DNA from: Sulfurospirillum diekertiae
GTDB lineage: Bacteria > Campylobacterota > Campylobacteria > Campylobacterales > Sulfurospirillaceae
Assembly: GCF_002309535.1 (NCBI RefSeq)
Contig: NZ_CP023275.1
Coordinates: 744,001 to 808,000 of the forward strand
DNA length: 64,000 nt
Direction: 5' to 3'
Position numbers and translations under genes: made by a program. This document shows, in pieces, positions 1 through 28,368 of the stretch. Within the stretch, counting starts at the first letter, position 1, and each line of letters begins with the position of its first letter. The notes under the pieces are model-generated. The model was not told the DNA's origin. It ran no database searches and worked only from the letters and a program-made list of their open reading frames with translations.

Positions 1-1
1 A

Positions 2-1678
2 GTTACCTTGCTTCTTATCATCTCTTTGGTGCTGACAGCAGTAGTCTCGACGGTAGTCGTTGCTTTTTTGATGAAAAACGATGCTTCCGAACGACTGGAT
101 AGCGTTCGTGCCGTGATGACACGTGAAAAGGTTGAAGCACTCTCCGATAAAGTGAAAATTGCGTATCATGTGGTGAATTCGTTTTATGAAGCATTGCAAA
201 ATGACCCCGACAACAGTGATCCAAATGTGGTTAAAGCGTATCAAGAAAAAGCAAAAACCGCAATCAAAAAGTTGCGTTTTGGCGAAGACGGTTACTTTTG
301 GATTAATGATTTTACCCCTAAAATGGTGATGCACCCCATCAAATCTTCCTTAGATGGAGCTAATTTAAGCGGTTCAAAAGACCCTAAAGGAAAGTTTTTA
401 TTTAACGAAATGGTTCAGATTGTTACTCAAAATGGTAAAGGTGTGGTGAACTATCTGTGGGAAAAACCTGGTTTTACGACACCGCAAGCGAAGATCTCCT
501 TTGTCGAAGGGTTTAAACCGTGGGGATGGATTATAGGAACGGGTGTTTATGCCGATGATATTGATGCCTTGGTTGTGAAAGAGAAGCAAAAATTGGATGA
601 GGCGTTGCTTTCTTTAATCCTGCGTAACAGCATTATTCTCTTAGTGGTTGTAACACTTTTTTCGTTTATCTCACGCTATTTGAGCCAAAAACTCATTGGT
701 AGCAGAATGGCGGACTTAAAACGGTATGTAGAAGATTTTGGACTGTATGTTACCAACAAAAAGAACCTTATTGATGAACGTTTGAATGACCATGCCGAGG
801 ATGAAATAGGCTCAACGGTGAGTGTGATCGACAAAACGTTTAAAGACTTTGAAAAACTACATTTAGATGATATTCGAGTCGTTGGTGAAGTGCTCATCAT
901 CTGTTCTAAAATGTCCAATGGCTATATGAACAACAAAACCTCTTTTGTCTCTTCTAACTTTTTAACCAATCGTCTCTCCTATGAAATTGATGCGATGATT
1001 GCTAAGGTGAATGAAGTGATGCAAGCAACACTCTCTTCTCTCAAAGATTTTCAAAAGGGTGACTTTAGCAAGCCTATTGCTATTGCAACCAATGGGGAGC
1101 TTAAAGAGTTGGTTGAGGGCGTGAATGCGCTTGGGAGTGCCTTAGCTAAAATGATTCGTGAAAATGCAGAACAGAGTGCACAACTTCATGAAAATGCCGA
1201 TCAACTAGCGAGCTCTGTGGCAACAATCAAAAATGAACCGCTCAGTGATCTTAATCGTATCGTGAAAAAGACAACGGCATCGATGCACGAAATGGGCTTG
1301 GTTCAACAGCACCTTGCCGAAACCCTCAGTACACTGACACAAAATGCGAAAGAGGCAAATGACATCTTAAATATGATTGGTGATATAGCCGATCAAACCA
1401 ATCTTTTAGCACTGAATGCCGCCATTGAAGCAGCTAGGGCCGGGGAGCATGGTCGTGGGTTTGCCGTTGTTGCCGATAACATTCGCGAGCTTGCCGATAA
1501 AACAAGTCACTCACTCACTCAAATCCAAGCAACCATTGGTGTCATTGTAGGTGGTATCGTCGATAGTTCGGCGAAAATGAGCACGAATGCCAAAGAGATG
1601 AATAGCTTAACCGATGATGTGGAAGAGATTCAAGAAAAAACCAGTGATATTTTAAATATTATGAGTAAACTAGGCTAA
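2..1678 (+). CDS. Methyl-accepting chemotaxis protein, sCache_2 sensor type (5' end outside window)
   Basis: Chemoreceptor that would sense a small ligand in the periplasm and control CheA. The reading frame is open to the window edge, so the true start and the first cytoplasmic residues are missing. Visible in order: the rest of the first membrane helix, a periplasmic Cache domain with the [10 protein letters not shown] and [11 protein letters not shown] signatures of sCache_2, a second membrane helix (about residues 200-222), a linker, and the signalling tip with [19 protein letters not shown] and GRGFAVVAD. The C-terminal arm after the tip is short and no receptor pentapeptide is seen, so adaptation enzymes would have to bind elsewhere. 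Family is certain; the ligand cannot be told. Confidence 0.93.
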
Positions 1679-1683: not shown

Positions 1684-1717
1684 GTTACATGTAAAGATAA
1701 CATACTTTACATGTAAC
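1684..1717 (+). terminator. Inverted repeat built from two TTACATGTAA palindromes
   Basis: Arms GTTACATGTAAAG (1684-1696) and CTTTACATGTAAC (1705-1717) are perfect 13-bp reverse complements around an 8-nt loop, six bases after the chemoreceptor stop codon. A T-rich stretch follows (TCTTCCTTTTTGTTTTC). It fits a rho-independent terminator made from two copies of the dispersed palindrome core. Confidence 0.65.
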
Positions 1718-1798
1718 TCTTCCTTTTTGTTTTCTCCTTCATCTTTTTCCAGATTTCCCGATTTAGCTATGGGGACAAATAAAATGAAGGAGATGGAC

Positions 1799-2329
1799 AT
1801 GAGTACCATCAACACATCTTACACCAACCAAGTTCTGGTAGATCAAAATCAAAATACCTCCAGTAACAGTTCTACATCTTCAACTAAAACTGCAGAGGCA
1901 GTGCCAAGTGTGGCAGAAACCTCTCGTAGTACACCTGTTGATAGCGTTGAAATTTCAGATGAAGCAAAAGCGTTGGCTGCAGGTAGCACAACAAGTGCCA
2001 GCTCAAGTAGCAGTGATACCTCTTCATCGTCTTCATCAACGAGTAGTCAAAGTAGTGGTTCAAGTAGTGCACAAAGCGGGGGCGCGAGTGCAGCATCAGG
2101 AGCCAGTAGTTCGTCATCATCTTCAAGCAGTGCAACGATAGATTCACAGATAAAAGCACTTGAAAAGAAAATTGCGGCTCTTGAAAAAGAGATCATTGAG
2201 CAGCAAAAAACAGCTAAGAATGATGAGCAAAGTGCGAAAGATCTTCAAACAAAAGAGGCACTTTTGGCTTCTTATCAAGCACAACTTGCGGAACTTGAAA
2301 CAGAAGCTGCCAAATCAGCATCTGCCTAA
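1799..2329 (+). CDS. Serine-rich low-complexity protein with C-terminal coiled coil
   Basis: Function not recognised. The ATG at 1799 is chosen because AAGGAGATGGAC sits just upstream; the frame is open to 1727 but the earlier part looks untranslated. The 176-residue product has no signal peptide. It has a polar N-terminus, a short motif (SVEISDEAKALAAG) like those in small flagellum-associated FlxA-like proteins, a Ser/Ala/Gly tract of about 60 residues, and a charged helix (about 120-176) with heptad Leu and Lys/Glu typical of a coiled coil. A CGATTT hexamer at 1759-1764 resembles the -10 of Campylobacter sigma-28 promoters, but no matching -35 is clear. The gene is bracketed by two palindrome-built hairpins. 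FlxA-like or flagellar assignment is a guess. Confidence 0.7.
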   Translation: MSTINTSYTNQVLVDQNQNTSSNSSTSSTKTAEAVPSVAETSRSTPVDSVEISDEAKALAAGSTTSASSSSSDTSSSSSSTSSQSSGSSSAQSGGASAASGASSSSSSSSSATIDSQIKALEKKIAALEKEIIEQQKTAKNDEQSAKDLQTKEALLASYQAQLAELETEAAKSASA

Positions 2330-2350
2330 AAAACCTCATTGGCTTGGGCA

Positions 2351-2385
2351 AAAGCTTTACATGTAACGTTTACATGTAAAGCTTT
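2351..2385 (+). terminator. Strong hairpin made of paired TTTACATGTAA palindromes
   Basis: Arms of 16 bp (2351-2366 and 2370-2385) are perfect reverse complements around the 3-nt loop CGT, and a T run ends the second arm. It lies 21 bp after the Ser-rich gene and before the dnaE promoter. Fits a rho-independent terminator. Confidence 0.75.
2369..2380. repeat. Dispersed palindrome TTTACATGTAAA
   Basis: Perfect intergenic copy forming the right arm of the 2351-2385 hairpin. The left arm holds the 11/12 copy TTTACATGTAAC (2356-2367). Confidence 0.9.
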
Positions 2386-2422
2386 TTAGGCAACACTTAC
2401 ACCCTCTTAAGTCCTCATTCGC

Positions 2423-2467: not shown

Positions 2468-5400
2468 ATGAGCGACATACCGTACACCCATTTACATTTA
2501 CATACTGAATATTCACTTCTTGATGGCGCCAATAAAATAGGCAAGCTGGTAAAAAAACTCAAAGCTCAAGGAGTGACATCCGTTGCGATAACCGATCATG
2601 GAAATATGTTTGGCGCGATTGATTTTTACAAAACCATGCGTAAAGAGGGCATTAAGCCGATCATTGGCATGGAAGCGTACATTCACAACCAAGAGGATAT
2701 CAGCGATAAAACCACCAAACAACGTTTTCACCTCTGCTTGTATGCCAAAAACGAAGTAGGGTATAAAAACTTGATGTATCTGGCTTCCATGAGTTACATC
2801 AAAGGCTTTTACTACTATCCGCGCATCAACAAAAAGATGTTGCGTGAGCACTCTGAGGGGCTGGTCTGCTCGGGGGCATGTTTACAAGGCGAAGTGAACT
2901 GGCATCTCAATCTGAACAACAAACGTAATGTCCAATTTGGTGCGCGAGGGTATGAACGCGCCAAAGAAGTGGCACTCGAATATAAAGATATTTTTGGTGA
3001 GGACTTTTACTTAGAGGTAATGCGTCATGGCATTACCGATCAACATTTCATCGACGATGATATTTTGCGTATTTCCAAAGAGACGGGCATCAAGCTCATT
3101 GCGACCAATGACACTCACTACTTAGAACAAGACAATGCCGAAGCACACGAGGCATTTATGTGTATTGCGATGAATAAAGAGTTTGACGATCCTAATCGTC
3201 TTCGTCACTCCGTGCATGAGTTTTACCTCAAATCCCCTGCGCAAATGAGCGATCTTTTTGCGGATATCCCTGAAGCCATTTCCAATACCCAAGAGATTGT
3301 GGAGAAGTGTAATTTAGAGATTAAACTGGGCGATCCAACCCCTCCAAAGTTTAAATTTACCAAAGAGTATGCCGCCAAAGAGGGGCTTAGCTTTGAGAGC
3401 GATGACGAGTTTTTTGCGTACCACAGTCGTAAAGGACTCGAAAAGCGTCTTTTAAATGTTGATGTCAGTAAGCATGAAGAGTATCGCGCCAGACTGGAAC
3501 GGGAAATTGACATTATCTGCAAGATGAAATTCCCTGGTTATATGCTCATCGTTTGGGATTTTATCCGTGAAGCCAAAGAGCGCGGTGTTCCTGTGGGACC
3601 AGGCCGTGGTTCAGCAGCAGGTAGTTTGGTCGCGTTTTCGCTTTTTATCACTGACATTGACCCGATGCCCTATAACCTGCTCTTCGAGAGGTTCTTGAAT
3701 CCTGAACGTATTAGTATGCCCGATATTGATATTGACTTTTGCCAGAGTCGTCGTGGTGAAATCATTGATTACGTTGTTGAAAAATACGGACGCTACAACG
3801 TCGCGCAAGTCATTACCTTTGGTAAACTTTTAGCCAAAGGTGTCATTCGTGATGTTGCGCGCGTTCTCGCCATTCCTTATGCCGAAGCCGATGCAATGGC
3901 AAAACTGATCCCCGATGAACTGGGCATCACACTTAATGGTGTGGGTGTTGAGGGAGAAGAAGGGTACAAACCAGGCGCCTTTCAAAAAGAGCCAAAACTT
4001 CGTGAACTCATTGAAAGCAGCCCTAAGATGCAACGCGTGTGGAAGTTTGCGTTAGCACTTGAAGGACTGAACCGCAACTCTGGTATGCATGCCGCAGGTG
4101 TGGTCATCAGCGATGAAGAGTTATGGCATAAAACACCGCTCTATCAGCCTTCTGGCGAAGATCATCTCGTCACACAGTATTCACTCAATTACCTTGAAGA
4201 TGTTGACTTAATCAAGTTCGACTTTTTGGGTCTGAAGACCCTGACCGTCATTGATAATGCGCTTAAGCTTATTAAACTTCGTTACAAAAAAGAGATTGAT
4301 TTTACGATCATTGATATGAACGATCCTAAGGTGTATGAACTGATTCAAAGTGGCGAAACAGTGGGACTGTTTCAGATTGAGTCCAGTGGTATGCAATCTT
4401 TGAATGAGCGTCTCAAACCAACCAACTTTGAAGATCTTATTGCCGTACTTGCCCTTTATCGCCCAGGCCCAATGGAATCAGGTATGTTGGATGACTTTAT
4501 CGAACGAAAGAATGGGCTAAAAGAGATTAGTTACTTCTTTGATGAATTTACCGAACCCCTTCGTCCTATTTTAGAGCCAACGTATGGCGTTATTGTCTAT
4601 CAAGAACAGGTTATGCAGATCGTTCAAGCCATTGGTGGTTTTAGCCTTGGCGAAGCGGATTTGATTCGTCGTGCGATGGGTAAGAAAAAGATCGACTACA
4701 TGAAACAAAAAGCCGAAGAGTTCGCGCAAGGTGCCGTTAATCAAGGCTTAGATCGCGCCCATGCGATTGAGCTTTTTGGCTTGATTGAGAAGTTTGCGGG
4801 ATACGGTTTTAACAAATCGCACTCTGCGGCCTACGCGATGGTTACCTTTGAAACGGCGTATCTGAAATGCTACTATCCGCAAGAGTTTATGGCGGCACTT
4901 CTCACATCAGAGCAAGACAATACCGATAAAATCGTTAAATACATCGATGAGGTCAAACGTCTTGGATTGAAGCTTTTACCGCCATCTATTCAGCACAGTT
5001 TGATTGCATTTAGTGCGATTACTGACACAGATGGTCAAGAGGCAATTCTCTTTGGTATGGGTGCGATCAAAGGGGTTGGAAATGCGGCGATCAGTAAAAT
5101 CTTAGAAGCCAGAGAGGGCGCACTCTTTGCAGATATGAGCGATTTTATCTCCCGTATTGACAGCTCTAAGGTCAATAAAAAAGTATTAGAGTCTTTTATC
5201 AAATCAGGAAGTTTTGATGACTTTGGCTACTCAAGACGCGCTTTGCTTGAAAATATTGATAGCATTATTGATGCAAGTGCTGAGTGCAGTCGGGCGAAGA
5301 AGATGGCAGAGTATTCCCTCTTTGGCGATGCTGAAGAGATGATGACGGTACAAGTAAACATCGAAAATATTCCCGAATTTGATAATAAGCGCATGTTAGA

Positions 5401-6013
5401 GCTTGAAAAAGAGACGATAGGTTTTTATATTTCAGGTCATCCATTAGATGCATTTAGAGCGGAAATTGATGAAATGAATTACACCCTTTCCAGCGAGCGT
5501 GATCAGGTTGAAGATGGCAGTAAGGCACTTTTTATTGGAAAAGTGGAAGGCATCACCGAGAAAATTAGCAAAAAAGGCAACAAGTTTGGCATTATCTCCT
5601 TGATGGATTTTCACGGTTCTATGGAACTGACTGTCTTTGAAAAACAGCTGGAATTGCTCTCCCGAATGGATTTGGAAAAACCACTCTGCTTTAAAGTCGA
5701 TGTGAGCAATGATGGGCAAAATACCAAAATGCGCGTTATGAAAATTATGGAGCTTAGTGACGCGAAAAAAGAGAAGATTGAAACCAAAGTCATTGAAGTG
5801 CCCCAAGAGCCCAAAGTGCTTCTCCTTGATCTCAGTGATGACACGAGCAAACTGGAATTTTTATACCAAATTGTGCGTCAAAATTCTGGACGTAGACCTC
5901 TTCATCTCGTCATCACGTCAAAACTGCAAGATGTCGTGATCGAAACTGGCTTTAGTGTGGATGATAGTATTGATGAACAGATCGCAGCACTCGAGTATGT
6001 CAAGGTCATTTAG
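2468..6013 (+). CDS. dnaE: DNA polymerase III alpha subunit
   Basis: Catalytic subunit of the replicative polymerase. The 1181 residues match the family length. An N-terminal PHP domain starts at once (HLHLHTEYSLLDG). The polymerase active site has the acidic motif PDIDIDF (P418, with D419, D421 and D423 following) and a third aspartate in IKFDFLGL (D585). The GPGRGSAAGS nucleotide-binding motif, helix-hairpin-helix region (GFNKSHSAAYA) and a C-terminal OB fold (about 1010-1110) are present. It follows a terminator and has its own candidate promoter, so it is probably monocistronic; it converges on flgS over a shared terminator. Nothing is missing. Confidence 0.98.
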   Translation: MSDIPYTHLHLHTEYSLLDGANKIGKLVKKLKAQGVTSVAITDHGNMFGAIDFYKTMRKEGIKPIIGMEAYIHNQEDISDKTTKQRFHLCLYAKNEVGYKNLMYLASMSYIKGFYYYPRINKKMLREHSEGLVCSGACLQGEVNWHLNLNNKRNVQFGARGYERAKEVALEYKDIFGEDFYLEVMRHGITDQHFIDDDILRISKETGIKLIATNDTHYLEQDNAEAHEAFMCIAMNKEFDDPNRLRHSVHEFYLKSPAQMSDLFADIPEAISNTQEIVEKCNLEIKLGDPTPPKFKFTKEYAAKEGLSFESDDEFFAYHSRKGLEKRLLNVDVSKHEEYRARLEREIDIICKMKFPGYMLIVWDFIREAKERGVPVGPGRGSAAGSLVAFSLFITDIDPMPYNLLFERFLNPERISMPDIDIDFCQSRRGEIIDYVVEKYGRYNVAQVITFGKLLAKGVIRDVARVLAIPYAEADAMAKLIPDELGITLNGVGVEGEEGYKPGAFQKEPKLRELIESSPKMQRVWKFALALEGLNRNSGMHAAGVVISDEELWHKTPLYQPSGEDHLVTQYSLNYLEDVDLIKFDFLGLKTLTVIDNALKLIKLRYKKEIDFTIIDMNDPKVYELIQSGETVGLFQIESSGMQSLNERLKPTNFEDLIAVLALYRPGPMESGMLDDFIERKNGLKEISYFFDEFTEPLRPILEPTYGVIVYQEQVMQIVQAIGGFSLGEADLIRRAMGKKKIDYMKQKAEEFAQGAVNQGLDRAHAIELFGLIEKFAGYGFNKSHSAAYAMVTFETAYLKCYYPQEFMAALLTSEQDNTDKIVKYIDEVKRLGLKLLPPSIQHSLIAFSAITDTDGQEAILFGMGAIKGVGNAAISKILEAREGALFADMSDFISRIDSSKVNKKVLESFIKSGSFDDFGYSRRALLENIDSIIDASAECSRAKKMAEYSLFGDAEEMMTVQVNIENIPEFDNKRMLELEKETIGFYISGHPLDAFRAEIDEMNYTLSSERDQVEDGSKALFIGKVEGITEKISKKGNKFGIISLMDFHGSMELTVFEKQLELLSRMDLEKPLCFKVDVSNDGQNTKMRVMKIMELSDAKKEKIETKVIEVPQEPKVLLLDLSDDTSKLEFLYQIVRQNSGRRPLHLVITSKLQDVVIETGFSVDDSIDEQIAALEYVKVI

Positions 6014-6015: not shown

Positions 6016-6027
6016 TTTACATGTAAA
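6016..6027. repeat. Dispersed palindrome TTTACATGTAAA
   Basis: Perfect copy (extended to CTTTACATGTAAAG) between the convergent dnaE and flgS genes, next to the bidirectional terminator hairpin. Confidence 0.9.
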
Positions 6028-6046
6028 GAGGTGCAAAGCCTCTTTA
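6024..6046. terminator. Bidirectional terminator between dnaE and flgS
   Basis: TAAAGAGG (6024-6031) and CCTCTTTA (6039-6046) form a perfect 8-bp stem with a 7-nt loop between two convergent genes. One arm overlaps the flgS stop codon. Confidence 0.55.
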
Positions 6047-7060
6047 GCGTGGAATGCGAATCTCAAATCCTTTGGGGTTTTCCAAGAGATTGATTCTTCC
6101 GTTGTGGGCTTGGATGATCTGCAAAGATAGTGCAAGTCCCAGACCATTGCCTTTAGTTTTGGTCGTTTTAAAGGGCTCAAAAAGAATGTTTTTATTCTCG
6201 ATGGGCTTGCCATCATCCTTTACATGTAAAAGTATAAATTCACAATCTTCTACGTAAGTTATCCTGACATTGCCACTTTCTTTCTCGCACTCTTCAATCG
6301 CGTCAATCGCATTAAAAATAAAGTTTTGAAGCACCAAATTGAGCAGTTCAAAGTCCGCTTTAATCTCAACATGGGGTAGATCAAAATGATAGGTCACCTC
6401 TTTAGTGTAAGAGTAATGAGAAATGGCCTGTTCACACTCTTTGATGAGGCGGTCAAGGTAAAAATAACTTGGATTTATTTGAACATTTTTGGTAAAGAGT
6501 AGGGTTGCTTTAATGATACGTTCCACTCTCCAAATGGCTTTTTTGATTTCGGTAACCAGAGGTTTAACACTAGGATCCACTTTTTTGAGTAACGTAGAGG
6601 CAAGCAAGGAGACGGAGCCTATGGGATTACGAATTTCATGGGAAAGATGTGCGGCAACTTGTCCCATGGAAACAAGACGTTCTTGGCGTTTTCCTTCCGT
6701 AATATCTGTAGCGGTAATGATTTTCTTATCGCTTTTGGTGACACTTTTAACCAGGTAAGAGCGCCCTTCAAAATCGACTTCACTCTCTTCTTCAATGCTC
6801 AATCCTTCTAAAATAGCTTCCATTTTTTTAGCTTCGCTATTTTGCAAAAAAATGGCACCATCTTCATCAAAAACCCACAAAGCATTCGGTTGTACTTCGA
6901 TGATCTGACGAATAAAATCTTGAAGAGAGGTGTATGAAACACCTAGCTTTTTATACTCATCTTCGATGACATACGTTTGGTTAATCAGATCTGCTAACCC
7001 TTGTTTAAAGAGCTCTTTTTCTTTAGCACTAAGGCTGTTGAGTAAATTTTCATCAATCAT
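6044..7060 (-). CDS. flgS: Flagellar two-component sensor histidine kinase FlgS
   Basis: Cytoplasmic kinase which in Campylobacter and Helicobacter phosphorylates FlgR to switch on sigma-54 flagellar genes when the export apparatus is in place. The 338 residues contain no membrane helix: an N-terminal helical part with ADLINQTYVIEDEYKKL, a PAS-like region (about 50-125) with LWVFDEDGAIFLQNSEA, the phosphoacceptor box HLSHEIRNP with the histidine at residue 141, and an HATPase domain with the N box (NFIFNAIDAIEE) and a GNGLGLALS glycine box. Position 141 is the same as I recall for C. jejuni FlgS. Two palindrome copies lie in or beside it; one encodes LLHVK. FlgR is not in the window. Confidence 0.88.
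   Translation of the reverse strand: MIDENLLNSLSAKEKELFKQGLADLINQTYVIEDEYKKLGVSYTSLQDFIRQIIEVQPNALWVFDEDGAIFLQNSEAKKMEAILEGLSIEEESEVDFEGRSYLVKSVTKSDKKIITATDITEGKRQERLVSMGQVAAHLSHEIRNPIGSVSLLASTLLKKVDPSVKPLVTEIKKAIWRVERIIKATLLFTKNVQINPSYFYLDRLIKECEQAISHYSYTKEVTYHFDLPHVEIKADFELLNLVLQNFIFNAIDAIEECEKESGNVRITYVEDCEFILLHVKDDGKPIENKNILFEPFKTTKTKGNGLGLALSLQIIQAHNGRINLLENPKGFEIRIPR
6219..6230. repeat. Dispersed palindrome TTTACATGTAAA
   Basis: Perfect copy inside flgS, read as Leu-His-Val-Lys in the ATPase domain. Confidence 0.9.
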
Positions 7061-7116: not shown

Positions 7117-8409
7117 TTGGACAAAGTCGTGCAAGCAATACGCAAAAATATCATTAAAGATAAAAATATTCTCTATTTCGATTATACGGCATCAGGTCAG
7201 GCGTATAAACCGATTGAAAAACAGATGCAAGCCATCCTTAAAACCTATGCTAATACCCACTCAGAAGTTGCTTCGAGTGCCATTCAAACAAGCAAATATT
7301 ATACCAAGGCGCGTAGCGACCTCAAAATTGCACTTGAAATTGATGAGAGTTTTTATATTTTTCCGTGTGGCTCTGGTGCTACGGGAGCGATCAAAAAATT
7401 TCAAGAACTCATTGGTATTTACATTCCTCCTCGCACACTTAAACGTTTTACATGTAAACCCGAAAACCTTCCCATCGTTTTTGTGGGACCGTATGAACAC
7501 CACTCCAATGAATTGAGCTTTCGTGAAGGGTTATGTGAAGTGATCCGTGTACCCCTCGATCAAGATGAAAAAATTGATATGGATTTTTTGAAACGTAGTC
7601 TTGAAGCTAATAAAGAGCGTGAGATCATCGCCTCCTTTTCAGTCGCTTCGAATGTTACGGGCATTGTGAGTGATTATAAAAGTATCTATAAACTGATCAA
7701 ACAGTATAACGGTATCTTGTGTCTTGATGCAGCAGCGGCGTCTCCTTACATCAATGTTGACTGTCACTACTATGACGCCTTGTTTCTCTCTCCTCACAAA
7801 CTTTTGGGTGGTGTGGGTGCGTGTGGTGTTTTGGTGATGAAAAAAGAACTTTGTACCGAAACAACACCGACGTTTGCAGGGGGTGGCACGGTTGGCTATG
7901 TCTCTCGTACTTCACATACGTATCTAAGTGATATTGAATTGATTGAAGATGCAGGAACTCCTGCTATTTTGCAGTTTATACGTGCCTCTTTAGCCTATAA
8001 CCTTCGTAATGAAATCGGCTTGGAGAAGATTCATGCAAAAGAAGAGGAACTCAAATTTTATTTTGGTTCTAGGCTTCGCGTGATTGAAGGGGTTAAACTC
8101 TATTGTAAATATTCACAAGATAAACTTCCTATCTTCTCACTGAATTTTGAAGGCATCAATCCTTATGATATCTCGCAGTATCTCTCCGATCAGTTTGGCA
8201 TTCAAACCAGAGCAGGGTGCAGTTGTGCAGGTCCCTATGGGCATGACCTTTTACATCTTGTCGATGGACAAAGTTTCGATGAAAAACCGGGTTGGTTACG
8301 TATCTCTATCCATTATACCCATACCAAAAAAGAGATAGATCAATTGCTTTATGCGATTGAAAAGGGTGTCAAAGCACTCCGTAAGAAAGATACTTTACCA
8401 AAGGCTTAG
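7117..8409 (+). CDS. Class V aminotransferase, cysteine-desulfurase-like
   Basis: PLP enzyme of the SufS/NifS fold. The 430-residue product (TTG start; GTG at 7129 is the alternative) contains CLDAAAASPY and SPHKLLGGVGACG, where K228 would hold PLP, and RAGCSCAGPYG near residue 368, in the place of the desulfurase cysteine loop. The sequence around it differs from true IscS/SufS, so the substrate is uncertain; it may act on a sulfur amino acid or be a general PLP lyase. In C. jejuni a similar gene lies near flgS (from memory). A palindrome copy encodes Phe-Thr-Cys-Lys. It converges on lrgB with a 4-bp overlap. Confidence 0.82.
   Translation: MDKVVQAIRKNIIKDKNILYFDYTASGQAYKPIEKQMQAILKTYANTHSEVASSAIQTSKYYTKARSDLKIALEIDESFYIFPCGSGATGAIKKFQELIGIYIPPRTLKRFTCKPENLPIVFVGPYEHHSNELSFREGLCEVIRVPLDQDEKIDMDFLKRSLEANKEREIIASFSVASNVTGIVSDYKSIYKLIKQYNGILCLDAAAASPYINVDCHYYDALFLSPHKLLGGVGACGVLVMKKELCTETTPTFAGGGTVGYVSRTSHTYLSDIELIEDAGTPAILQFIRASLAYNLRNEIGLEKIHAKEEELKFYFGSRLRVIEGVKLYCKYSQDKLPIFSLNFEGINPYDISQYLSDQFGIQTRAGCSCAGPYGHDLLHLVDGQSFDEKPGWLRISIHYTHTKKEIDQLLYAIEKGVKALRKKDTLPKA
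7447..7458. repeat. Dispersed palindrome TTTACATGTAAA
   Basis: Perfect copy inside the aminotransferase gene, read as Phe-Thr-Cys-Lys. Confidence 0.9.
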
Positions 8410-9131
8410 GTTAAGATAATCTCTAGTAAGGGTGCAATAAGAACATTGAAAATGCCTGTTAAGACCATGACCAATGCCGCAATAGTCCCAACTTCGTTGT
8501 CTAACTCATAAGCTTTATTAGAACCCACGACGTGTGCTGCTAATCCAAAAGAGGCACCGCGCGACATTTTTGACTTAAGCGGTAGCCAATAGAGCACTAA
8601 CTGCCCAAAAGAAGCACCAAAAATCCCTGTGAGTATCACAAAAATAGCCGTTAATTCTGGCGTGCCACCAATCTCTCCTGAAATAACCATGGCAAAAGGG
8701 GTGCTGATGGAGCGAGGTAAAAGGCTTAAACGAAGCGTACTCTCAATCCCTACCGCGGAAGCTAAAAACCACGCAGAGGCAATAGAGAGGATGGAGCCAA
8801 AAATAACGCCAATGCTCAGTGTTCGCCAGTATAAAAGCATGATATTTTTACGTCTATAGATAGGAACAGCAAAAGCAACCGTGGCAGGTCCAAGCAAGGC
8901 AATGAGCCAGTGTGTACCGCTTATATAAACATTGTAATTGGTGTGCGATACAATCGTGATGATGATTAAGAGTATCGGTGTAATGATAATAGGGGCTGTC
9001 CACCAGCGTTTATAGCGGCGGTGAAAAACCTTAGAGAGCCAATAGAGCCCTATGGTTACTACTGACCATAAAAGTGTCACTTCTGCCGCCATTAAAAGAG
9101 AGCGGTAGGTAAGAAATGCGTCAAAATTCAT
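8406..9131 (-). CDS. lrgB: LrgB/CidB family membrane protein
   Basis: Partner of LrgA in a two-protein membrane system linked to cell-wall hydrolase control and export of small metabolites in other bacteria. The 241 residues make about six to eight hydrophobic helices and hold the family signatures LLPRSISTPFAM, GEIGGTPELTAIFVILTGI and AAHVVGSNKAYE. Its start overlaps the end of lrgA by 4 nt, so the two are co-translated. The role in this organism is not known. Confidence 0.9.
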   Translation of the reverse strand: MNFDAFLTYRSLLMAAEVTLLWSVVTIGLYWLSKVFHRRYKRWWTAPIIITPILLIIITIVSHTNYNVYISGTHWLIALLGPATVAFAVPIYRRKNIMLLYWRTLSIGVIFGSILSIASAWFLASAVGIESTLRLSLLPRSISTPFAMVISGEIGGTPELTAIFVILTGIFGASFGQLVLYWLPLKSKMSRGASFGLAAHVVGSNKAYELDNEVGTIAALVMVLTGIFNVLIAPLLEIILT

Positions 9132-9556
9132 TGTATATTCTCATCTTTAACATGTTTCTCCAATTTATAAAAACTAAAATCGACGATAAAAGCGGTTCCA
9201 ATAATGACGATGATGGTTCCTATAATAATGATGGCTAAGATTTTCAACCCTGTCCAGCCAAAAAATTCTTGGTGGTTTAGGACCGCTGGTACTGCTGGTA
9301 TAAAGAAAAGAAGCATTTCAGCTAAGAACCATTCAGCCCCAAGCGCTAAAGAGCGAATGCTCAGAATATTAAATTGTAAAAGCATTAGTACGAAGAGCAA
9401 TCCTATAACGCCACCGGGAATGGGGATGTGGAAAAGAAGGGATATCTCTTCGGCACAAAACCAAAGGGCACATATAAGAGCTATTTGAAGGATACGACTT
9501 TTGTGAAATTTATGTTTAAAAAGAATCAAAAGTTTTTTAAAAGTATGTGGTAGCAT
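9128..9556 (-). CDS. lrgA: LrgA/CidA family holin-like protein
   Basis: Small integral membrane protein of the CidA/LrgA family, first gene of the lrgAB pair. The ATG at 9556 (MLPHTF) is preferred: the frame is open to a TTG at 9598, but that would add a tail unusual for the family. The 142 residues include IPIPGGVIGLLFVLMLLQF and a FIPAVPAVL segment typical of the family, with four hydrophobic helices and a short charged C-terminus. Overlaps lrgB by 4 nt. Confidence 0.88.
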   Translation of the reverse strand: MLPHTFKKLLILFKHKFHKSRILQIALICALWFCAEEISLLFHIPIPGGVIGLLFVLMLLQFNILSIRSLALGAEWFLAEMLLFFIPAVPAVLNHQEFFGWTGLKILAIIIIGTIIVIIGTAFIVDFSFYKLEKHVKDENIQ

Positions 9557-9741
9557 GATAAACTTTTCTAATAGGGATATTCTTATGAATTTAGACAATG
9601 AGGAAGTTTTTGAAATTTAGTACCAACTCGCATGAAAGGGTAATACTGAATTCAAAGGAGGCTTCATCAATAACCATAAATTTAATTGAGTGGAATTATA
9701 CACAAAAATAAAAATAAAGTACGTTAAACACGCATAAAAAC

Positions 9742-9753
9742 TTTACATGTAAA
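9742..9753. repeat. Dispersed palindrome TTTACATGTAAA
   Basis: Perfect intergenic copy, 167 bp upstream of the kup start codon; not paired with a second copy. Confidence 0.9.
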
Positions 9754-9863
9754 CCTAAAATGAGATTTTAATCACCCTAAATCTTATAGGGATCTTTTTC
9801 TTTTTTTCTCCTTTTGTAGCTTTTAGTAAAATTTAATATTTTAAGCACTAGAATAAGCTCTTG

Positions 9864-9891
9864 CACTTTTTTTAGGCAAGAAAAAAAAGTG
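9864..9891 (+). promoter_or_regulatory. Hairpin in the kup leader
   Basis: CACTTTTTTT (9864-9873) and AAAAAAAGTG (9882-9891) are a perfect 10-bp inverted repeat around TAGGCAAG-like loop sequence, ending 28 bp before the kup ATG. It may be an attenuator or only A/T-rich chance; no known riboswitch is recognised. Confidence 0.3.
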
Positions 9892-9919
9892 TTTCCCCGT
9901 TTACAAAGGATGACAATAT

Positions 9920-11740
9920 ATGACGTTAAAAGAGCGTATCAAAAATGAGATGATGGTTATAAAGGCACTCGGTGTTGTTTACGGCGATATTGGGACAAGT
10001 CCTATCTATACCTTGGCAGTTATTTTTCTTATTGTTCCGCCAACAGTCGTTAGTATCTATGGTATTTTGTCATTTGTCTTTTGGGCATTAACTATTCTTG
10101 TTACCATTCAATATGCATGGTTAGCCACGAGCTTGAGTGCAAAAGGAGAAGGTGGTACTGTTGTTCTCATTCAAATGTTAACGCCACATCTTAAAAGTGC
10201 AAAGATGGTCTCCATAGTATCTGTTTTGGGATTTTTAGGGCTTTCCTTGATGATTGGCGATGGTGTTATTACTCCTGCTATTAGTATTCTGAGCGCGGTA
10301 GAAGGTATTCTCCTTATTCCACAATACGAGGAGCTTCCTCAAATTGTACTTTTAGTCTTAGCGACACTCATTGCATTTGCCCTTTTTGCCGTTCAAAAAA
10401 GAGGTGTTGAAAAAGTCGCTTCTACCTTTGGACCTATTATGGTCATTTGGTTTTTATGTCTAGGTGGCGTTGGATTTTGGTATGTAAGTCAAGATTTTTC
10501 TATTTTAAATGCAATCAATCCGATGTATGCTATTAATTTTGCACTGGCAAATCCTGTTATTACCTTTATTATTCTTGCAGATATTATTCTTGCAACTACG
10601 GGTGGAGAGGCATTGTATGCCGATATGGGACATTTAGGGCGATTGCCCATTCTTAAAGGATGGGTTTTTGCTTTTATCGCATTGATTTTAAGTTACTATG
10701 GACAAGGCGCATTTTTACTAACGCATCCTGAGTCTGTTGGAAGCCCGTTATTTGAAATGATGCGAGAGTTTGCACCTCTTTTATATGTCCCTTTTCTTAT
10801 CCTAACAATTATAGCAACGATTATCGCTTCACAAGCAATGATCAGTGGTATTTTCTCTGTACTTTACCAAGCGATGACAACACGTATTTTTCCCCATTTT
10901 CGCGTCGAATATACATCACATGAGTTACGCTCTCAAATTTATGTAGGTTCTATTAACTGGTTTTTATTTGTGTGTGTCATTATTATGCTTTTTGTCTTTA
11001 AAGAGTCTGCAAAGCTTGCAGCTGCATATGGTTTAGCTGTTGCGGGAGCCATGAGCATTACCGGTGTTTTAATGACAATGATCTTTGCCTACCGTAGAGA
11101 GTGGATTAAAATGAGTTTTGCCACTTTTTCAGGGATTGTTAGTTTTGTTTTCTTCTTATCGTGTCTTCTAAAAATTCCTCATGGTGGTTTCTGGTCTCTC
11201 TTAATTGCAGCCGTTCCTCTAGGCTTTATTATTCTTTATACACAAGGACAAGAACGCCTTTACTCTTCATTTCACTCGGTAGATAAAGAAAATTTCTTAC
11301 AAGCATACAATGCGCATTATGCACAAGAGTCTCATATTGAAGGCACTGCTCTTTTCTTTGCACGTAAGGCAGAAAATATCCCTGCTTATATTCCTAAAAC
11401 AATGTTCCAAAATGGCATTATTTACGAGAGAAATGTTATTGTGAAGGTTAAGCCGACAAATGAACCTTTAGGCATTACAAATGAGTTTAAGTCGTTGGCA
11501 GAAGGGCTTGATCTTCTTGTGATTCATGTTGGATACATGGAGGTTTTCAATATGGAAGAGAGCCTTAAAAAACAAGATATTCATGAACGAACAATTTTTT
11601 ACGGCGATGAAGAAATTGTCTCAAAACATTTTTCATGGAAACTGTATGCACTGATTAAAGATATGTCTCCAAGTTTCGTAAGCTTTTACAATTTCCCTCA
11701 AGAAAAACTCATCGGTGTTTCACGCCGTATCGAAATCTAA
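9920..11740 (+). CDS. kup: KUP-family potassium transporter
   Basis: Proton-coupled potassium uptake protein of the inner membrane. The start follows AAAGGA at good spacing. The 606 residues open with GVVYGDIGTSPIYTL, the family hallmark, followed by about twelve hydrophobic helices with SLMIGDGVITPAISILSAVEG and GGEALYADMGHLG, and a cytoplasmic C-terminal part (about 430-606). This is about the usual length (E. coli Kup has 622). It stands alone between a leader with a hairpin and a terminator. No defect seen. Confidence 0.97.
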   Translation: MTLKERIKNEMMVIKALGVVYGDIGTSPIYTLAVIFLIVPPTVVSIYGILSFVFWALTILVTIQYAWLATSLSAKGEGGTVVLIQMLTPHLKSAKMVSIVSVLGFLGLSLMIGDGVITPAISILSAVEGILLIPQYEELPQIVLLVLATLIAFALFAVQKRGVEKVASTFGPIMVIWFLCLGGVGFWYVSQDFSILNAINPMYAINFALANPVITFIILADIILATTGGEALYADMGHLGRLPILKGWVFAFIALILSYYGQGAFLLTHPESVGSPLFEMMREFAPLLYVPFLILTIIATIIASQAMISGIFSVLYQAMTTRIFPHFRVEYTSHELRSQIYVGSINWFLFVCVIIMLFVFKESAKLAAAYGLAVAGAMSITGVLMTMIFAYRREWIKMSFATFSGIVSFVFFLSCLLKIPHGGFWSLLIAAVPLGFIILYTQGQERLYSSFHSVDKENFLQAYNAHYAQESHIEGTALFFARKAENIPAYIPKTMFQNGIIYERNVIVKVKPTNEPLGITNEFKSLAEGLDLLVIHVGYMEVFNMEESLKKQDIHERTIFYGDEEIVSKHFSWKLYALIKDMSPSFVSFYNFPQEKLIGVSRRIEI

Positions 11741-11757
11741 CGACACTACGATTAACG

Positions 11758-11790
11758 AACCTTGGAAGAAAAGGATCTTCTTTCAAGGTT
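11758..11790 (+). terminator. Terminator-like hairpin after kup
   Basis: AACCTTGGAAGAA and TTCTTTCAAGGTT form a 13-bp stem with one G-U pair and a 7-nt loop, 18 bp after the kup stop. No long T run follows, so termination strength is uncertain. Confidence 0.5.
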
Positions 11791-11852
11791 ACCTTTAAGG
11801 CAAAGTCTCGCTCACTATTCTATTGTTTTAAGTGACATGCCTAGTTTACAAG

Positions 11853-11858
11853 TATAAT
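11853..11858 (+). promoter_or_regulatory. Orphan -10 box TATAAT
   Basis: Consensus TATAAT in AAGTATAATTCTTTGG, pointing rightwards into a stretch with no plus-strand gene. It would start a transcript near 11865. Confidence 0.5.
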
Positions 11859-11864
11859 TCTTTG

Positions 11865-12000
11865 GTGTCTTAGGGCTCTTTAAGAAAGTTCAGCTTTTTT
11901 AACGATAAGGAGTGAGCGTACAAGCGGTAAATTTGGGGAGTATCAGAGAAGGCAAGATAGTGTTGGTGAACACCGAGAAGGTGCGCCAAAAGAGTTACTT
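11865..12000 (+). ncRNA. Candidate structured small RNA, possibly 6S-like
   Basis: After an orphan TATAAT the sequence has no coding frame but is unlike the surrounding AT-rich spacers: purine-rich single strands, GAAAGT near the left end pairing with ACTTTC at the right end, and near the right end GTTGGTGAACACCGAGAAGG. Parts of this resemble the GGTGA...CCGAGAAG region of E. coli 6S RNA, from memory. No clean terminator follows and the right end runs into the 3' end of the next gene (opposite strand). Not 4.5S, tmRNA or RNase P RNA by their core motifs. Boundaries and identity are uncertain. Confidence 0.3.
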
Positions 12001-12474
12001 TCGGCTACCTGTTTCGCTGTATTGTTTCATGCTTTCAAAGAACGTATCACGTAAGGTATTTGTATAAGCGGTCGCTCTTTTGGCATCAGTGATGGTAATC
12101 AGTGCTTCATTGCCAAATTTATCACTTACTTTTGAAAGATCATATGTCAATTTTGATTTATCATTGAGTTTAGTTAGTGCTTTAAAAAATGCCTCATCCA
12201 ACTCTTTATTTTTAAGTTTGTCATTTTGGTAGAGATAAAGTGCAACACGGTAAACTTCGTCTTTATCGGTGCTATAAACTTCAACGTATTCAATAGCATT
12301 GTCCAGAAGTTTGACATTGAAGTAGTTTTGATCCTTTGTTACACAGGAAAACTCTGTACATTTAAAACCATTGGCTTCTAAGTAAGTTTTATCTTTACCA
12401 ATAAGATCATCTAAAAAACCTGCAAAGAGAGAGATATGTGATGCGATTGCGAGAAAAAGAAGTGCTTTTTTCAT
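11995..12474 (-). CDS. Predicted secreted protein of unknown function
   Basis: Not recognised. The 159-residue product has a clear signal peptide (MKKALLFLAIASHISLFAG) with cleavage near residue 19. The mature part is small, charged and soluble, mixed helix and strand, with two cysteines five residues apart (FKCTEFSCV) that could form a disulfide in the periplasm. The gene lies alone between a candidate small RNA on the other strand and a tRNA. No domain can be named. Confidence 0.75.
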   Translation of the reverse strand: MKKALLFLAIASHISLFAGFLDDLIGKDKTYLEANGFKCTEFSCVTKDQNYFNVKLLDNAIEYVEVYSTDKDEVYRVALYLYQNDKLKNKELDEAFFKALTKLNDKSKLTYDLSKVSDKFGNEALITITDAKRATAYTNTLRDTFFESMKQYSETGSRK

Positions 12475-12525
12475 AACATTTACCTTTTTGTATCAAATTA
12501 AAAGTAATCAAAACCAAGAAGCAAG

Positions 12526-12602
12526 TGGTGGGTCCTGAGTGGCTCGAACACTCGACCACCCCGTTATGAGCGGGGTGCTCTAACCAACTGAGCTAAGGAC
12601 CC
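12526..12602 (-). tRNA. tRNA with CAT anticodon (Ile-lysidine type or elongator Met)
   Basis: Complete cloverleaf on the minus strand: acceptor GGGTCCT/AGGACCC, D arm GCTC...GAGC, anticodon stem CCCCG/CGGGG around CTCATAA, a 5-nt variable loop, T stem GAGTG/CACTC with TTCGAGC, discriminator A and an encoded CCA. Anticodon CAT means elongator Met or Ile2 (lysidine-modified). The CCTTAGCTCAG start and TGGTCG variable region look closer to Ile2 of E. coli, but this is not decisive; it is not an initiator type, since the acceptor end is fully paired. Confidence 0.95.
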
Positions 12603-12669
12603 ATTTTAAAGAGTGAAATTGTATCTTTTTTATTGTTAAAAGAATATAAAAATAACGCTACGTACGGGC

Positions 12670-13776
12670 TTAGAGCGAATATTTGATCGAACGGTAGGTC
12701 GGGTCAAATCGGAAAGCTAATAGGTTTTCTAAGATACCAAAAAGAGCAAAAAAAGTGATGAAACTACTGCCTCCATAGCTGTAAAAAGGTAAGGGAACGC
12801 CTACTACTGGAGCTAGCCCAATTGTCATAGCGATATTAATGCTCATATAAAAGAAAATCAGCAAAGAGATACCGCTCGTGATAACTCGAGCAAAATAGTC
12901 CTCTTTAAGAAGAAAATTGAGGCTTAAAAGGTGCATGACTAAAGAGGCATAGCAAACAATGAGTCCCAATGCTCCCCAAAATCCAAGGCGTTCAACGGTA
13001 TAGGCAAAGATAAAATCACTCGTAGCAATGGGTAGAAATTTGTAATGTGTTTGTGTCGCTTCACTGCGTTCTTTTCCTGTTAATCCACCCGATCCTATGG
13101 CAATAATCGACTGTTTGACATGGTAACTTGGTTTTTCTGAGATAAAGTCGGTAATACGTTGCTTCTGATAGTCATGTAAACTATTGTACATAAGAGGACT
13201 GCAAATGCCAATGATAATGGCTAATGTGATCCATATTTTTTTATGCACACCAATCACAAAGAGCGTTCCATAGCCTAGCAATACTAAAACCATCGCCGTT
13301 CCAAGGTCTGGCTCTTTTGCCACAAGTATAAATGGCAATAGAATATAAAAGCTGAGTTTAAAAAAAGATTTCCATCCGTATCCATTCTCTTCAGGAGGAT
13401 TGTTTTTGATAAGGTAGGCAAGCATTAAAATAAAAGCAGGCTTGAAAATTTCAGAGGGCTGAATAGTAAAATGCACAAAGGGAATTTCCAGCCATCTTCG
13501 AGCCCCCAGTTTTGCAATACCAAAAAAATCAACACTCAGAAGTAAAATAATCGTGACCCAATAGAAAAAAGGGATTACCCACTCAATTTTTTTAATCGGG
13601 ATAATAAAAAAGAGGAGAAATACAGCAAATCCAACGGTGTAATACACAATCTGTTTATTAGCCAGCATTGTGTTGGCTTCAGCGATGAGATAATAGGAAA
13701 TAACGATGATAGGAAGTACCAGTATAGGAATTAAAAAATCAAAATGTGTTAAGATGCGCCTATCAATTTGAAACAC
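12670..13776 (-). CDS. rodA: Rod-shape determining peptidoglycan polymerase RodA
   Basis: SEDS-family glycosyltransferase that polymerises glycan strands with a class B PBP for lateral wall growth. The 368 residues are very hydrophobic with about ten helices and contain the signatures ARRWLEIPFVHFTIQPSEIFKP, KEPDLGTAMVL and LPFYSYGGSS. RodA rather than FtsW is suggested by its length and by lacking the extended FtsW N-terminus, and PBP2 (mrdA), its usual partner, is also in this window though far away. Single gene, divergent from the rluD-like gene. Confidence 0.9.
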   Translation of the reverse strand: MFQIDRRILTHFDFLIPILVLPIIVISYYLIAEANTMLANKQIVYYTVGFAVFLLFFIIPIKKIEWVIPFFYWVTIILLLSVDFFGIAKLGARRWLEIPFVHFTIQPSEIFKPAFILMLAYLIKNNPPEENGYGWKSFFKLSFYILLPFILVAKEPDLGTAMVLVLLGYGTLFVIGVHKKIWITLAIIIGICSPLMYNSLHDYQKQRITDFISEKPSYHVKQSIIAIGSGGLTGKERSEATQTHYKFLPIATSDFIFAYTVERLGFWGALGLIVCYASLVMHLLSLNFLLKEDYFARVITSGISLLIFFYMSINIAMTIGLAPVVGVPLPFYSYGGSSFITFFALFGILENLLAFRFDPTYRSIKYSL

Positions 13777-13833
13777 TCTATCCCTTTGGAAAGTTTTCGC
13801 AAGTATATCAAAAATTAGAAGAAAGTAGGCTGT

Positions 13834-14817
13834 ATGGAGTTTACATGTAAAGAGTCAAAAAGGCTTGATGCCGCGATGAGTGAGGCATTGGAGTTACCGC
13901 GCAATCAGGTCGAAAAACTGATTAAAAATGTGGGTGTTATGGTCGATGGAAAATTGTGTACAAAGTGCAGTACGAAGCTTCTGGAAGGCAATGTCATTTA
14001 TTATGAATTTGCAGAAGCTGAGCAGAGTTCAAGCGAGTATGAAGTTAATTTTGATGTGCCTATTTTGTATGAAGATGACGATCTTTTGGTGATTAATAAG
14101 CCACCTTTTTTAACGGTACATGGCGCTCCCAGTGTTAAAGAAGCAACGCTCGTGGACTGGCTGAAGTTTAAGGGTATTAATCTTTCTACTATCAGTGGTG
14201 AAGAGCGTCATGGCATTGTGCATCGCATTGACAAAGAAACCAGTGGCGCGTTAGTCATTGCTAAAAACAATGAAGCACATTTAAGTCTCTCTTCTCAGCT
14301 TGAAGATAAAAGTATGGGCAGATACTACCTTGCCATGATTGATTTACCTCTCAAAGATAATATCGTTGTTGAGCTGCCTATTGGGCGTAGTGTCAATAAT
14401 CGTCTGAAAATGGACGTCCAAAAAAAAGATGGACGCATGGCAAAAAGTGCTTTTTCTAAACTTTTGGTATCGCGTGATGGCAAAAAAGAGTTGATTGCTG
14501 CCAAGCTTTTTACAGGACGAACGCATCAGATCAGAGTGCATCTCCAAGCACTCTCCCGCCACATCTTGGGTGATAGTTTATACGGCTTTAAGAGCCAAAA
14601 TGGTACAATACCAAGAGTTATGTTACACGCTTATATTTTGTATCTTATGCATCCAAGGACAGGGCAATTATTACAAATAAATGCTCCCTTGTGGGATGAT
14701 TTTGATGCCTATTTAAGACACCATTTCAGTAAGGAAGAGGTAGATGAAAAAATTACTTTGGATAGTATCGTTAATGGCTTTAAGCTTCATGATCAGTGGT
14801 TGCGAAAAGACGCTTGA
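13834..14817 (+). CDS. RluA/RluD-family pseudouridine synthase
   Basis: Isomerises uridine to pseudouridine in rRNA. The 327 residues contain an N-terminal S4 RNA-binding domain (about 10-60) and the catalytic domain with HGIVHRIDKETSGALVIAK, where D133 is the catalytic aspartate, and GRTHQIRVHL. The start codon lies six bases before a palindrome copy, so the protein begins MEFTCKES. It is the first gene of the flpA-amiA operon and overlaps flpA by 74 bp, an unusually long overlap for an intact pair. Target site in rRNA cannot be told; RluD or RluC are both possible. Confidence 0.92.
   Translation: MEFTCKESKRLDAAMSEALELPRNQVEKLIKNVGVMVDGKLCTKCSTKLLEGNVIYYEFAEAEQSSSEYEVNFDVPILYEDDDLLVINKPPFLTVHGAPSVKEATLVDWLKFKGINLSTISGEERHGIVHRIDKETSGALVIAKNNEAHLSLSSQLEDKSMGRYYLAMIDLPLKDNIVVELPIGRSVNNRLKMDVQKKDGRMAKSAFSKLLVSRDGKKELIAAKLFTGRTHQIRVHLQALSRHILGDSLYGFKSQNGTIPRVMLHAYILYLMHPRTGQLLQINAPLWDDFDAYLRHHFSKEEVDEKITLDSIVNGFKLHDQWLRKDA
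13840..13851. repeat. Dispersed palindrome TTTACATGTAAA
   Basis: Perfect copy at codons 3-6 of the pseudouridine synthase gene, read as Phe-Thr-Cys-Lys and covering part of the translation start region. Confidence 0.9.
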
Positions 14818-16006
14818 AACACCTAAAGAGCCCGTTGTTGATGCTTCTATGCCTAGAATAGAAGGTATTCGTACCTTGGCAGGTTCTACAGAAGTTGGTT
14901 TTGAATGGACGCCGATCTACAGTTCACAAATCGAAGGGTACTACTTATACCGAATGGAAGGCAATAGTATGAAAAAGATTGCCACCATCAAAGACAAATA
15001 TGTATCGCACTATGTGGATACGAAACTAAGACCCAACTCAAGCTATAGCTATCAGATGAGTACTTATTCTGCGGATAAACATGAATCTGCGTTAAGTGCA
15101 ATGACAAGCGTAACAACAACAGGACTTGTTGCTAACACTCCAACCGTAGGTGGCATTGATTCTGTTTCATTTATCAATGCGGTTTCAGGATTGCCTGCGT
15201 GTATTAAAATTATTTGGAGACCCCATTCCCAACAGAATGTAGAATATTACATCATTGAACGTAACGAATATAAGTCTACTTCATGGGACGAGATTGGCAA
15301 AGTTAAAGGTAGATTAAACGCCGAATATATTGACAAAGATATTAAAGATAATTCTGTTTACCGTTATCGCGTTAAAGTAAAAACCTCTGATGATGTTGTC
15401 TCAAAACCAAGTGATACCGTTGAAGCACATTCAAAACCTCTACCTCGTGGTATTACGGGAGTTAAAGCAACGTCAGATTTGCCTAAAAAAATTATTTTGA
15501 CATGGAGTCCATCAACGACAAGTGATTTTGCTTATTATAAAATTTATCGTTCTCCAACATCAGGTCTGTTCTATACTTTTTTTGGTAAAACAGTCAATAC
15601 TGAGTTTGAAGATTTAATCAATGATAATGGTAAAACCTATTACTACAGAGTCGTAGCCGTCGATGTTGATGGTCTTGAATCAAAGCAAGATACAACGGTT
15701 GCTGGTATGACACTCTCAGCACTGAATGCTCCTTCTGTCAGTTCGGTAAAACATGATGGTAGTTCTATTTCCATTTCATGGGCTGGGGATGATAATGCAA
15801 TCAAATACAGTGTTACCAAAGAATTTGAGATCTCTGGCAAAACAAAAAAACAGAATTTTACAGGTATCTTTGAGAGCAATTTTGTTGACCAAGACACCGT
15901 TCCTGGTGTAGAGTACAAATATAATATTATTGCGATAGATAAATATGGCATTGCCTCTAAACCTTCGGATAGTGTGCTTATTACGATTCCAAAGGGATCA
16001 AATTAA
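14744..16006 (+). CDS. flpA: Fibronectin type III lipoprotein, FlpA-like
   Basis: Lipoprotein with a lipobox ending SFMISGC (cysteine 20), then three or four beta-sandwich fibronectin type III repeats (roughly 38-125, 135-230, 233-325 and 328-418) with the recurring WxP.....YYxIYR and TYYYRVVAVD patterns. The ATG follows GGAAGAGGTAG. C. jejuni FlpA, in the same genomic position next to trmB, binds host fibronectin; a free-living relative may use it for surface or envelope structure instead. The host-binding role is therefore inference. Overlaps the upstream gene by 74 bp and is 3 bp from trmB. Confidence 0.85.
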   Translation: MKKLLWIVSLMALSFMISGCEKTLETPKEPVVDASMPRIEGIRTLAGSTEVGFEWTPIYSSQIEGYYLYRMEGNSMKKIATIKDKYVSHYVDTKLRPNSSYSYQMSTYSADKHESALSAMTSVTTTGLVANTPTVGGIDSVSFINAVSGLPACIKIIWRPHSQQNVEYYIIERNEYKSTSWDEIGKVKGRLNAEYIDKDIKDNSVYRYRVKVKTSDDVVSKPSDTVEAHSKPLPRGITGVKATSDLPKKIILTWSPSTTSDFAYYKIYRSPTSGLFYTFFGKTVNTEFEDLINDNGKTYYYRVVAVDVDGLESKQDTTVAGMTLSALNAPSVSSVKHDGSSISISWAGDDNAIKYSVTKEFEISGKTKKQNFTGIFESNFVDQDTVPGVEYKYNIIAIDKYGIASKPSDSVLITIPKGSN

Positions 16007-16009
16007 TTT

Positions 16010-27796: not shown

Positions 27797-28368
27797 TAGA
27801 TGTTGCTTTTAACGAAGTTTTCCATCTCGCTGACGATCTCTTCGATGGTACGTTCGCCATTGATTTTATGAAGAAGATTTTTCGCACCGTAGAAGGCTTG
27901 AATACCCGCTAATGGTTCCGTGTACACCTTCATACGGTTTTTGAAGACTTGAACGTTATCATCTGCTCCACGCGCACGTCCTAGAACACGATCACATGCA
28001 ACTTGCTCGCTGACTTCTACTTCCACGACAGAGACAAGTTTCACAGTTGTTTCTGTTGCAAGAATAGCATCCAGTGCTTTCATCTGCTCATCAGAGCGTG
28101 GAAAACCATCGATCAAAATGACATCTTTAGGGCTATTTTTGATGGCGCTAACAATGGTATTGATAACAATATCAAGAGGAACAAGATTGCCCGCACTGAC
28201 AAATGAATCAATCGTTTTACCCAGTTCACTACCACTAGCCACCTCATCACGAAGTAACTCACCTGTTGAGTAGTGCGCAATTACGTCGCTATTTTTTTCT
28301 GCAATTAAACTCGCATCTGTTGTTTTTCCGCTGCCTGGGGCGCCAATAATCAAAAATAGTTTCTTCAT
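27796..28368 (-). CDS. adk: Adenylate kinase
   Basis: Interconverts ATP + AMP and 2 ADP. The start at 28368 is preferred over the ATG two codons earlier (28374), because AAAAGG then has a six-base spacing. The 190 residues hold the P-loop GAPGSGKT (9-16), [13 protein letters not shown] and [11 protein letters not shown]. There is no zinc lid; this is the short-lid form usual in the class. Downstream of aspS on the same strand. Confidence 0.95.

Follow-up and report, generated by a model that had tools for sequence, protein, structure and literature searches.

A family-specific, position-conserved palindrome of the Sulfurospirillaceae, partly arranged in pairs that are probably terminators

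To our knowledge, comparable genome-wide sequence marks are known in few bacterial groups only: Neisseriaceae and Pasteurellaceae are the only families with documented self-DNA uptake sequences, and the cyanobacterial palindrome HIP1 is, as far as we know, still unexplained after decades. In bacteria it is common for gene ends to carry a hairpin. Neisserial DNA uptake sequences (DUS) occur with gene-end pairs and at conserved positions; 71% of them are exactly conserved across all six genomes studied, and the ratio of DUS to one-off forms is 2.4 (PMC2397512). An excess of near-matches is typical of known uptake sequences (PMC1939737). Campylobacter jejuni takes up only DNA with CtsM-methylated sites (PMC8468864). 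Here we describe a 10-letter palindrome, TTACATGTAA, which is a family-specific, sharply defined and position-conserved mark of the Sulfurospirillaceae; a number of its copies form pairs that probably act as terminators. A literature search, conducted largely without subscription journals, found no account of this palindrome, and it appears to be an undescribed genome-wide mark.

The window (the whole stretch of Sulfurospirillum diekertiae DNA that was analysed, 64 kb) contains 28 copies of TTACATGTAA, which are listed below together with the genes surrounding the first two pairs.

1..1678, + strand: chemoreceptor gene encoding dCache and MCPsignal domains; its 5' end lies beyond the window
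1684..1717, + strand: hairpin 1, two TTACATGTAA copies at 1685-1694 and 1707-1716, starting 6 bp after the chemoreceptor stop
1799..2329, + strand: Ser-rich gene encoding 176 aa with a weak FlxA-like coiled coil, its place between chemoreceptor and dnaE conserved
2350..2386, + strand: hairpin 2, two TTACATGTAA copies at 2357-2366 and 2370-2379, 21 bp past the Ser-rich stop and 81 bp ahead of dnaE
2468..6013, + strand: dnaE (DNA polymerase III alpha), syntenic anchor and source of the tree
6017..6229, unstranded: copies at 6017-6026 (directly past the dnaE stop) and 6220-6229 (coding)
7448..16685, unstranded: single 10-bp copies starting at 7448, 9743, 13841 and 16676
24074..34460, unstranded: single 10-bp copies starting at 24074, 27508, 32365, 33954, 34233 and 34451
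38746..49129, unstranded: single 10-bp copies starting at 38746, 41966, 44312, 45285, 45843 and 49120
51331..51358, unstranded: third close pair, copies at 51331-51340 and 51349-51358, intragenic, without extended arms
54577..63249, unstranded: single 10-bp copies starting at 54577, 56159, 61780 and 63240

The initial annotation had described the palindrome copies on both sides of the Ser-rich gene as perfect inverted repeats at the ends of the chemoreceptor and Ser-rich genes. This was confirmed, with arms of 13 bp and 17 bp (16 bp had been given for the second) lying 6 and 21 bp past the respective stops. In hairpin 1, positions 1684-1696 (GTTACATGTAAAG) pair without mismatch with 1705-1717 (CTTTACATGTAAC), leaving a loop of 8 nt between the 13-bp arms; in hairpin 2, positions 2350-2366 (AAAAGCTTTACATGTAA) pair equally perfectly with 2370-2386 over 17 bp around a 3-nt loop. 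T-rich sequence had been claimed after both hairpins. It is clear 3' of hairpin 1 (TCTTCCTTTTTG), but the TTTT run of hairpin 2 belongs to the arm and the U-tract after that stem is weak. A consensus terminator scan listed hairpin 1 and gave no entry for hairpin 2. The RNA folding energies of -16.3 kcal/mol (hairpin 1) and -23.7 kcal/mol (hairpin 2) were equalled by 0 of 200 dinucleotide shuffles.

Since TTACATGTAA is itself palindromic, any two copies form an inverted repeat, and inversion alone is therefore no evidence for a hairpin. The evidence consists of arms extending beyond the 10-mer, position, and conservation or covariation, and these favour a hairpin. Hairpin 2 is conserved across seven relatives, in which three base pairs show compensation, a result reached in 0 of 500 shuffles. 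The hairpin 1 pair is kept in genomes G015, G019, G008, G013 and G012, and with an altered loop also in G009; its covariation is borderline.

The 2.81-Mb genome contains 1,211 copies of TTACATGTAA, approximately one per 2.3 kb, versus 7 copies of the reversed control, and in the window 33 matches with at most one mismatch were found versus 3.25 expected; these two comparisons exclude chance or base composition as the origin of the motif. Finer counts were obtained from an 864-kb sample consisting of the window and forty 20-kb stretches, most of which were picked for holding close pairs. This sample contained 403 perfect copies and 64 single-mismatch forms (31 expected by chance), the excess of the latter being concentrated at the outermost motif positions. 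The ratio of perfect to one-off forms was thus 6.3 raw and more than 12 after background correction. The consensus is (C)TTTACATGTAAA(G): the flanks favour T and then C outwards, and the core TTACATGTAA is all-or-none.

Coding sequence held 196 of the 403 copies (0.26 per kb) and intergenic sequence 207 (1.70 per kb), a 6-fold intergenic enrichment, the densities being approximate as genes were called with a simple ORF caller. Convergent gaps carried 6.95 copies per kb and divergent gaps 0.81. Spacing was slightly more even than random (21 gaps longer than 5 kb versus 29.9 expected), and motif density was fairly uniform along the chromosome. Plasmid DNA of S. diekertiae was depleted, with 5 copies on 50 kb versus 21.7 expected. 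Eight sampled genes terminate within the motif, apparently using its TAA as stop codon, and the reading frame that places this TAA inside genes is otherwise avoided.

Individual copies are retained to an unusual degree. In the alignment with G015 (90% identity) 79 of 86 copies were intact, versus 32% of control 10-mers in coding and 42% in intergenic sequence. In the alignment with G008 (80.5% identity), which we take to be S. multivorans, all 21 of 21 copies were intact, versus 14-29% of random 10-mers. At a distance similar to that of G008, however, only 8 of 50 copies were intact in G020 and 6 of 75 in G009, near the control level. This contrast between genomes indicates that copies are held individually in most species and have been released in some. 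Insertion of a mobile element was ruled out as the source of the copies, because motif-free orthologous sites mostly showed aligned sequence with substitutions instead of clean gaps.

Two explanations can be judged on these data. Gene-end hairpins are frequent enough in bacteria that ordinary terminators, together with chance or base composition and with no genome-wide mark behind them, might be proposed; this was already refuted by the copy counts (1,211 versus 7), and with 196 of 403 copies intragenic and the extreme positional conservation we give it practically no credence. The other explanation holds that TTACATGTAA is bound by a homodimeric protein, either an organiser of the chromosome or a global regulator, and is maintained because each site contributes a little. 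A palindromic, sharp and position-conserved motif with slightly even spacing would suit such a protein, but intergenic density is lowest in the divergent (promoter) gaps, half of the copies are intragenic, chromosomal density is fairly uniform and no candidate protein was found, which makes a homodimer site improbable.

Close pairs of copies (gap of 30 nt or less) numbered 47 in the genome and 0 for the control; other congeners had 4 to 66, roughly in proportion to copy number. The initial annotation had asked for a genome-wide test of whether such pairs lie preferentially after stop codons, and this proved to be so: 37 of 49 sampled close pairs were intergenic, most of them 0-30 bp downstream of a stop codon. 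A start-to-start spacing of 22 bp was frequent (12 sampled close pairs). Beyond the palindrome, intergenic pairs were more complementary than shuffled partners, both in the outer 5 nt (p=0.002) and in the inner 3 nt (p<0.0002), whereas the same shuffled-partner test found no extra complementarity in intragenic pairs. The excess of close pairs at gene ends over the number predicted from local density was modest (30 versus 20.7, p=0.03). T content after pairs was little raised (0.36 versus 0.30), with the same value after coding pairs, and there was no general T excess. In the low-copy genome G009, 7 of the 8 intergenic copies that survive in the sample belong to gene-end hairpins, and its remaining copies include an excess of pairs.

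That close pairs act as terminator hairpins, as the first reading of the sequence had proposed, is a well-supported prediction because the pairs mostly follow stops, pair beyond the palindrome and, in the case of the hairpin before dnaE, show compensatory changes. They resemble Rho-independent terminators in forming stable hairpins right after stops, with a T-rich tail at hairpin 1. Unlike these, they have AU-rich stems derived from a genome-wide repeat, and the U-tract at hairpin 2 is weak. A pair of the form TTACATGTAA-GGA(N3-5)TCC-TTACATGTAA recurs at many gene ends in several species (L003, L027, L036, L037, L040, L074, G013), as if it were a favoured terminator form. Two identical paired hairpins with the loop TTATTTGG lie 4 kb apart (G000:C1:1881510-1881541 and 1885565-1885596), suggesting local duplication.

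Over-representation of TTACATGTAA was confined to one family, the Sulfurospirillaceae. The 22 sampled Sulfurospirillum congeners contained 49 to 1,496 copies, in most cases from some hundreds up to about 1,500; the range was 6 to 733 in other genera of the family and 0-6 in other families of the order. Samples of 80 kb per family from four other Campylobacterales families contained no comparable palindrome, no replacement palindrome was seen in 400 kb of G009, and no dialect of the palindrome was found. In the DnaE tree, some forks of which have support below 95, G009 (49 copies) and G020 (238) are sisters of G012 (1,056) and G013 (1,127), and G011 (168) groups with G010 (411). As the low-copy genomes are nested among high-copy ones, the mark was lost or reduced several times, and the three low-copy branches (49, 168 and 238 copies) appear to have lost an active factor that maintained it. 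Six of the 15 motif copies from 400 kb of G009 lie in one 20-kb stretch, L103 (G009:C1:2000001-2020000), all of them coding; this stretch may be an import from a motif-rich relative.

Taken as a whole, the data are probably best explained by regarding both hairpins as paired copies of a maintained genome-wide palindrome whose gene-end pairs were co-opted as 3'-end hairpins or terminators. Every copy would be kept intact by a trans-acting factor that recognises the core, and copies would have decayed where this factor was lost. The positions of most copies would be those at which a copy does least harm, mainly directly past genes, and two neighbouring copies past a gene would form an RNA stem-loop. 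The pairing statistics and the covariation point to gene-end pairs having been co-opted and refined with extra pairing, presumably for termination.

It had also been suggested that bracketing by the two hairpins could help the gain or exchange of the Ser-rich gene. This was not supported. Motif-rich species, the low-copy genomes G009 and G020, and also G010 and G011 all have the gene at the identical place, and in G011 no motif copy lies nearby. It was inherited together with its neighbours, and the bracketing does not explain gain or exchange.

As to the role of the mark, the idea of an uptake signal, raised in the initial annotation, is plausible because architecture, positional conservation and plasmid depletion resemble those of Neisseria uptake sequences. 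Self-DNA recognition in natural transformation, as by the neisserial sequence, would be the likeliest single role, a choice that we make tentatively. Copy number, family specificity, conservation at orthologous positions and inverted gene-end pairs all agree with it. In common with DUS and USS the palindrome is an approximately 10-nt, family-restricted motif with one copy per 1-2.5 kb and intergenic enrichment; it likewise forms inverted pairs after genes, here as probable terminators, is stringently conserved in position and has few copies on mobile DNA. DUS and USS, however, are non-palindromic and accompanied by a graded excess of near-matches, neither of which was found here: the motif is palindromic, and its near-matches are near background (ratio of perfect to one-off forms 6.3 raw and more than 12 corrected, versus 2.4 in DUS).

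Four competence-gene families (ComEC, DprA, T2SSF and a small ComEA-like HHH_3 protein) did not track copy number. The low-copy genomes G009 and G020 have ComEC, DprA and T2SSF, so that loss of any of the three as the cause of motif decay is not supported; a specific receptor could have been lost in the low-copy genomes. Most motif-rich Sulfurospirillum, the window's own genome included, gave no match to the ComEA-like protein, which was found in G016 and in other genera. In two Sulfurospirillum genomes dprA is split, its parts lying approximately 24 kb (G013:C4:153796-177886) and 35 kb (G017:C8:271719-306839) apart, as if a large mobile element had inserted into this competence gene.

The main rival to uptake is an intracellular, methylation-linked role, as proposed for cyanobacterial HIP1. 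An adenine methyltransferase acting on the palindrome centre (e.g. CATG), together with repair or another intracellular reader, would create or hold the palindrome, and the gene-end hairpins would be a by-product. A D12-class adenine methyltransferase (approximately 330 aa) was found in 12 of 12 Sulfurospirillum genomes with at least 1,000 copies, the enzyme of the window's own genome being known as a search match only, and was missing in G009 (49), G020 (238), G011 (168) and G010 (411 copies). Its presence correlated with copy number (Mann-Whitney p=0.004, Fisher p=0.011, both ignoring phylogeny), and it had no obvious nuclease partner at loci L300, L303, L304 and L305. The enzyme presumably resembles CATG-methylating NlaIII-type enzymes; it had no match among solved structures, and NCBIfam gave no specificity. 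HIP1 genomes show a similar methyltransferase link (PMC4390886).

Further likenesses to HIP1 are a short palindrome highly over-represented genome-wide at about one copy per 1-2 kb, its loss in some lineages and the partial association with an adenine methyltransferase. The differences are considerable. One-off sequences are common for HIP1 and almost absent here (64 versus 31 expected, beside 403 perfect copies); the palindrome is AT-rich and 10-12 bp long, whereas HIP1 is GC-rich and 8 bp; it forms gene-end hairpin pairs, and low-copy G009 has no alternate palindrome. Moreover, the 10-bp core is longer than usual methyltransferase sites, G017 (934 copies) and G026 (567) have the motif without the D12 enzyme, and most members of genus g4 carry the enzyme yet have only 6-97 copies, the correlation holding only within Sulfurospirillum. 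We therefore consider a HIP1-like mark rather unlikely.

The ideas of uptake and methylation can be combined, because C. jejuni, a member of the same order, recognises self DNA through methylated sites (PMC8468864). The cell's own methyltransferase would modify both strands, and competent cells would recognise the methylated palindrome, in the manner of CtsM. This would account for the palindromic form and for the partial correlation with the methyltransferase. Yet the counterexamples G017, G026 and genus g4 apply here too, and the EcoRI-type methylase PF13651, taken as a stand-in for CtsM, occurred in only 5 of 44 genomes and, as a candidate maintenance factor, did not match copy number. If the uptake reading is right, the two systems share short-motif self-DNA recognition, but the CtsM site is a short methylated sequence and not an over-represented 10-mer. 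Strictly methylation-gated uptake is in our view a poor bet. Somewhat better placed, though a little less so than self-DNA recognition as such, is the wider proposal that the Sulfurospirillaceae possess a third, independently evolved self-DNA signal, namely an uptake sequence that is palindromic, may be read only in methylated form and is also built into terminators; it would have been lost at least three times in one genus with the core competence genes kept.

The mark of the Sulfurospirillaceae is sharper than those described, and palindromic, and closely related species with and without it amount to natural knock-outs. Culturable members such as S. multivorans make the upkeep of such marks directly testable, whether by uptake, by repair and methylation or by a DNA-binding protein. 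The question is also relevant for organohalide-respiring bacteria, in which gene exchange is of practical interest.

Two further observations concern modification and restriction. The S. diekertiae plasmids pSDCE1 and pSDIE1 (L306 and L307) carry a D12 methyltransferase related to the chromosomal one, the pSDIE1 gene being fragmented. GGCC (observed/expected 0.27) and CCGG (0.44) are strongly avoided in the window and the sampled stretches, CCGG reaching 0.06 in G020, hinting at past or present restriction systems.
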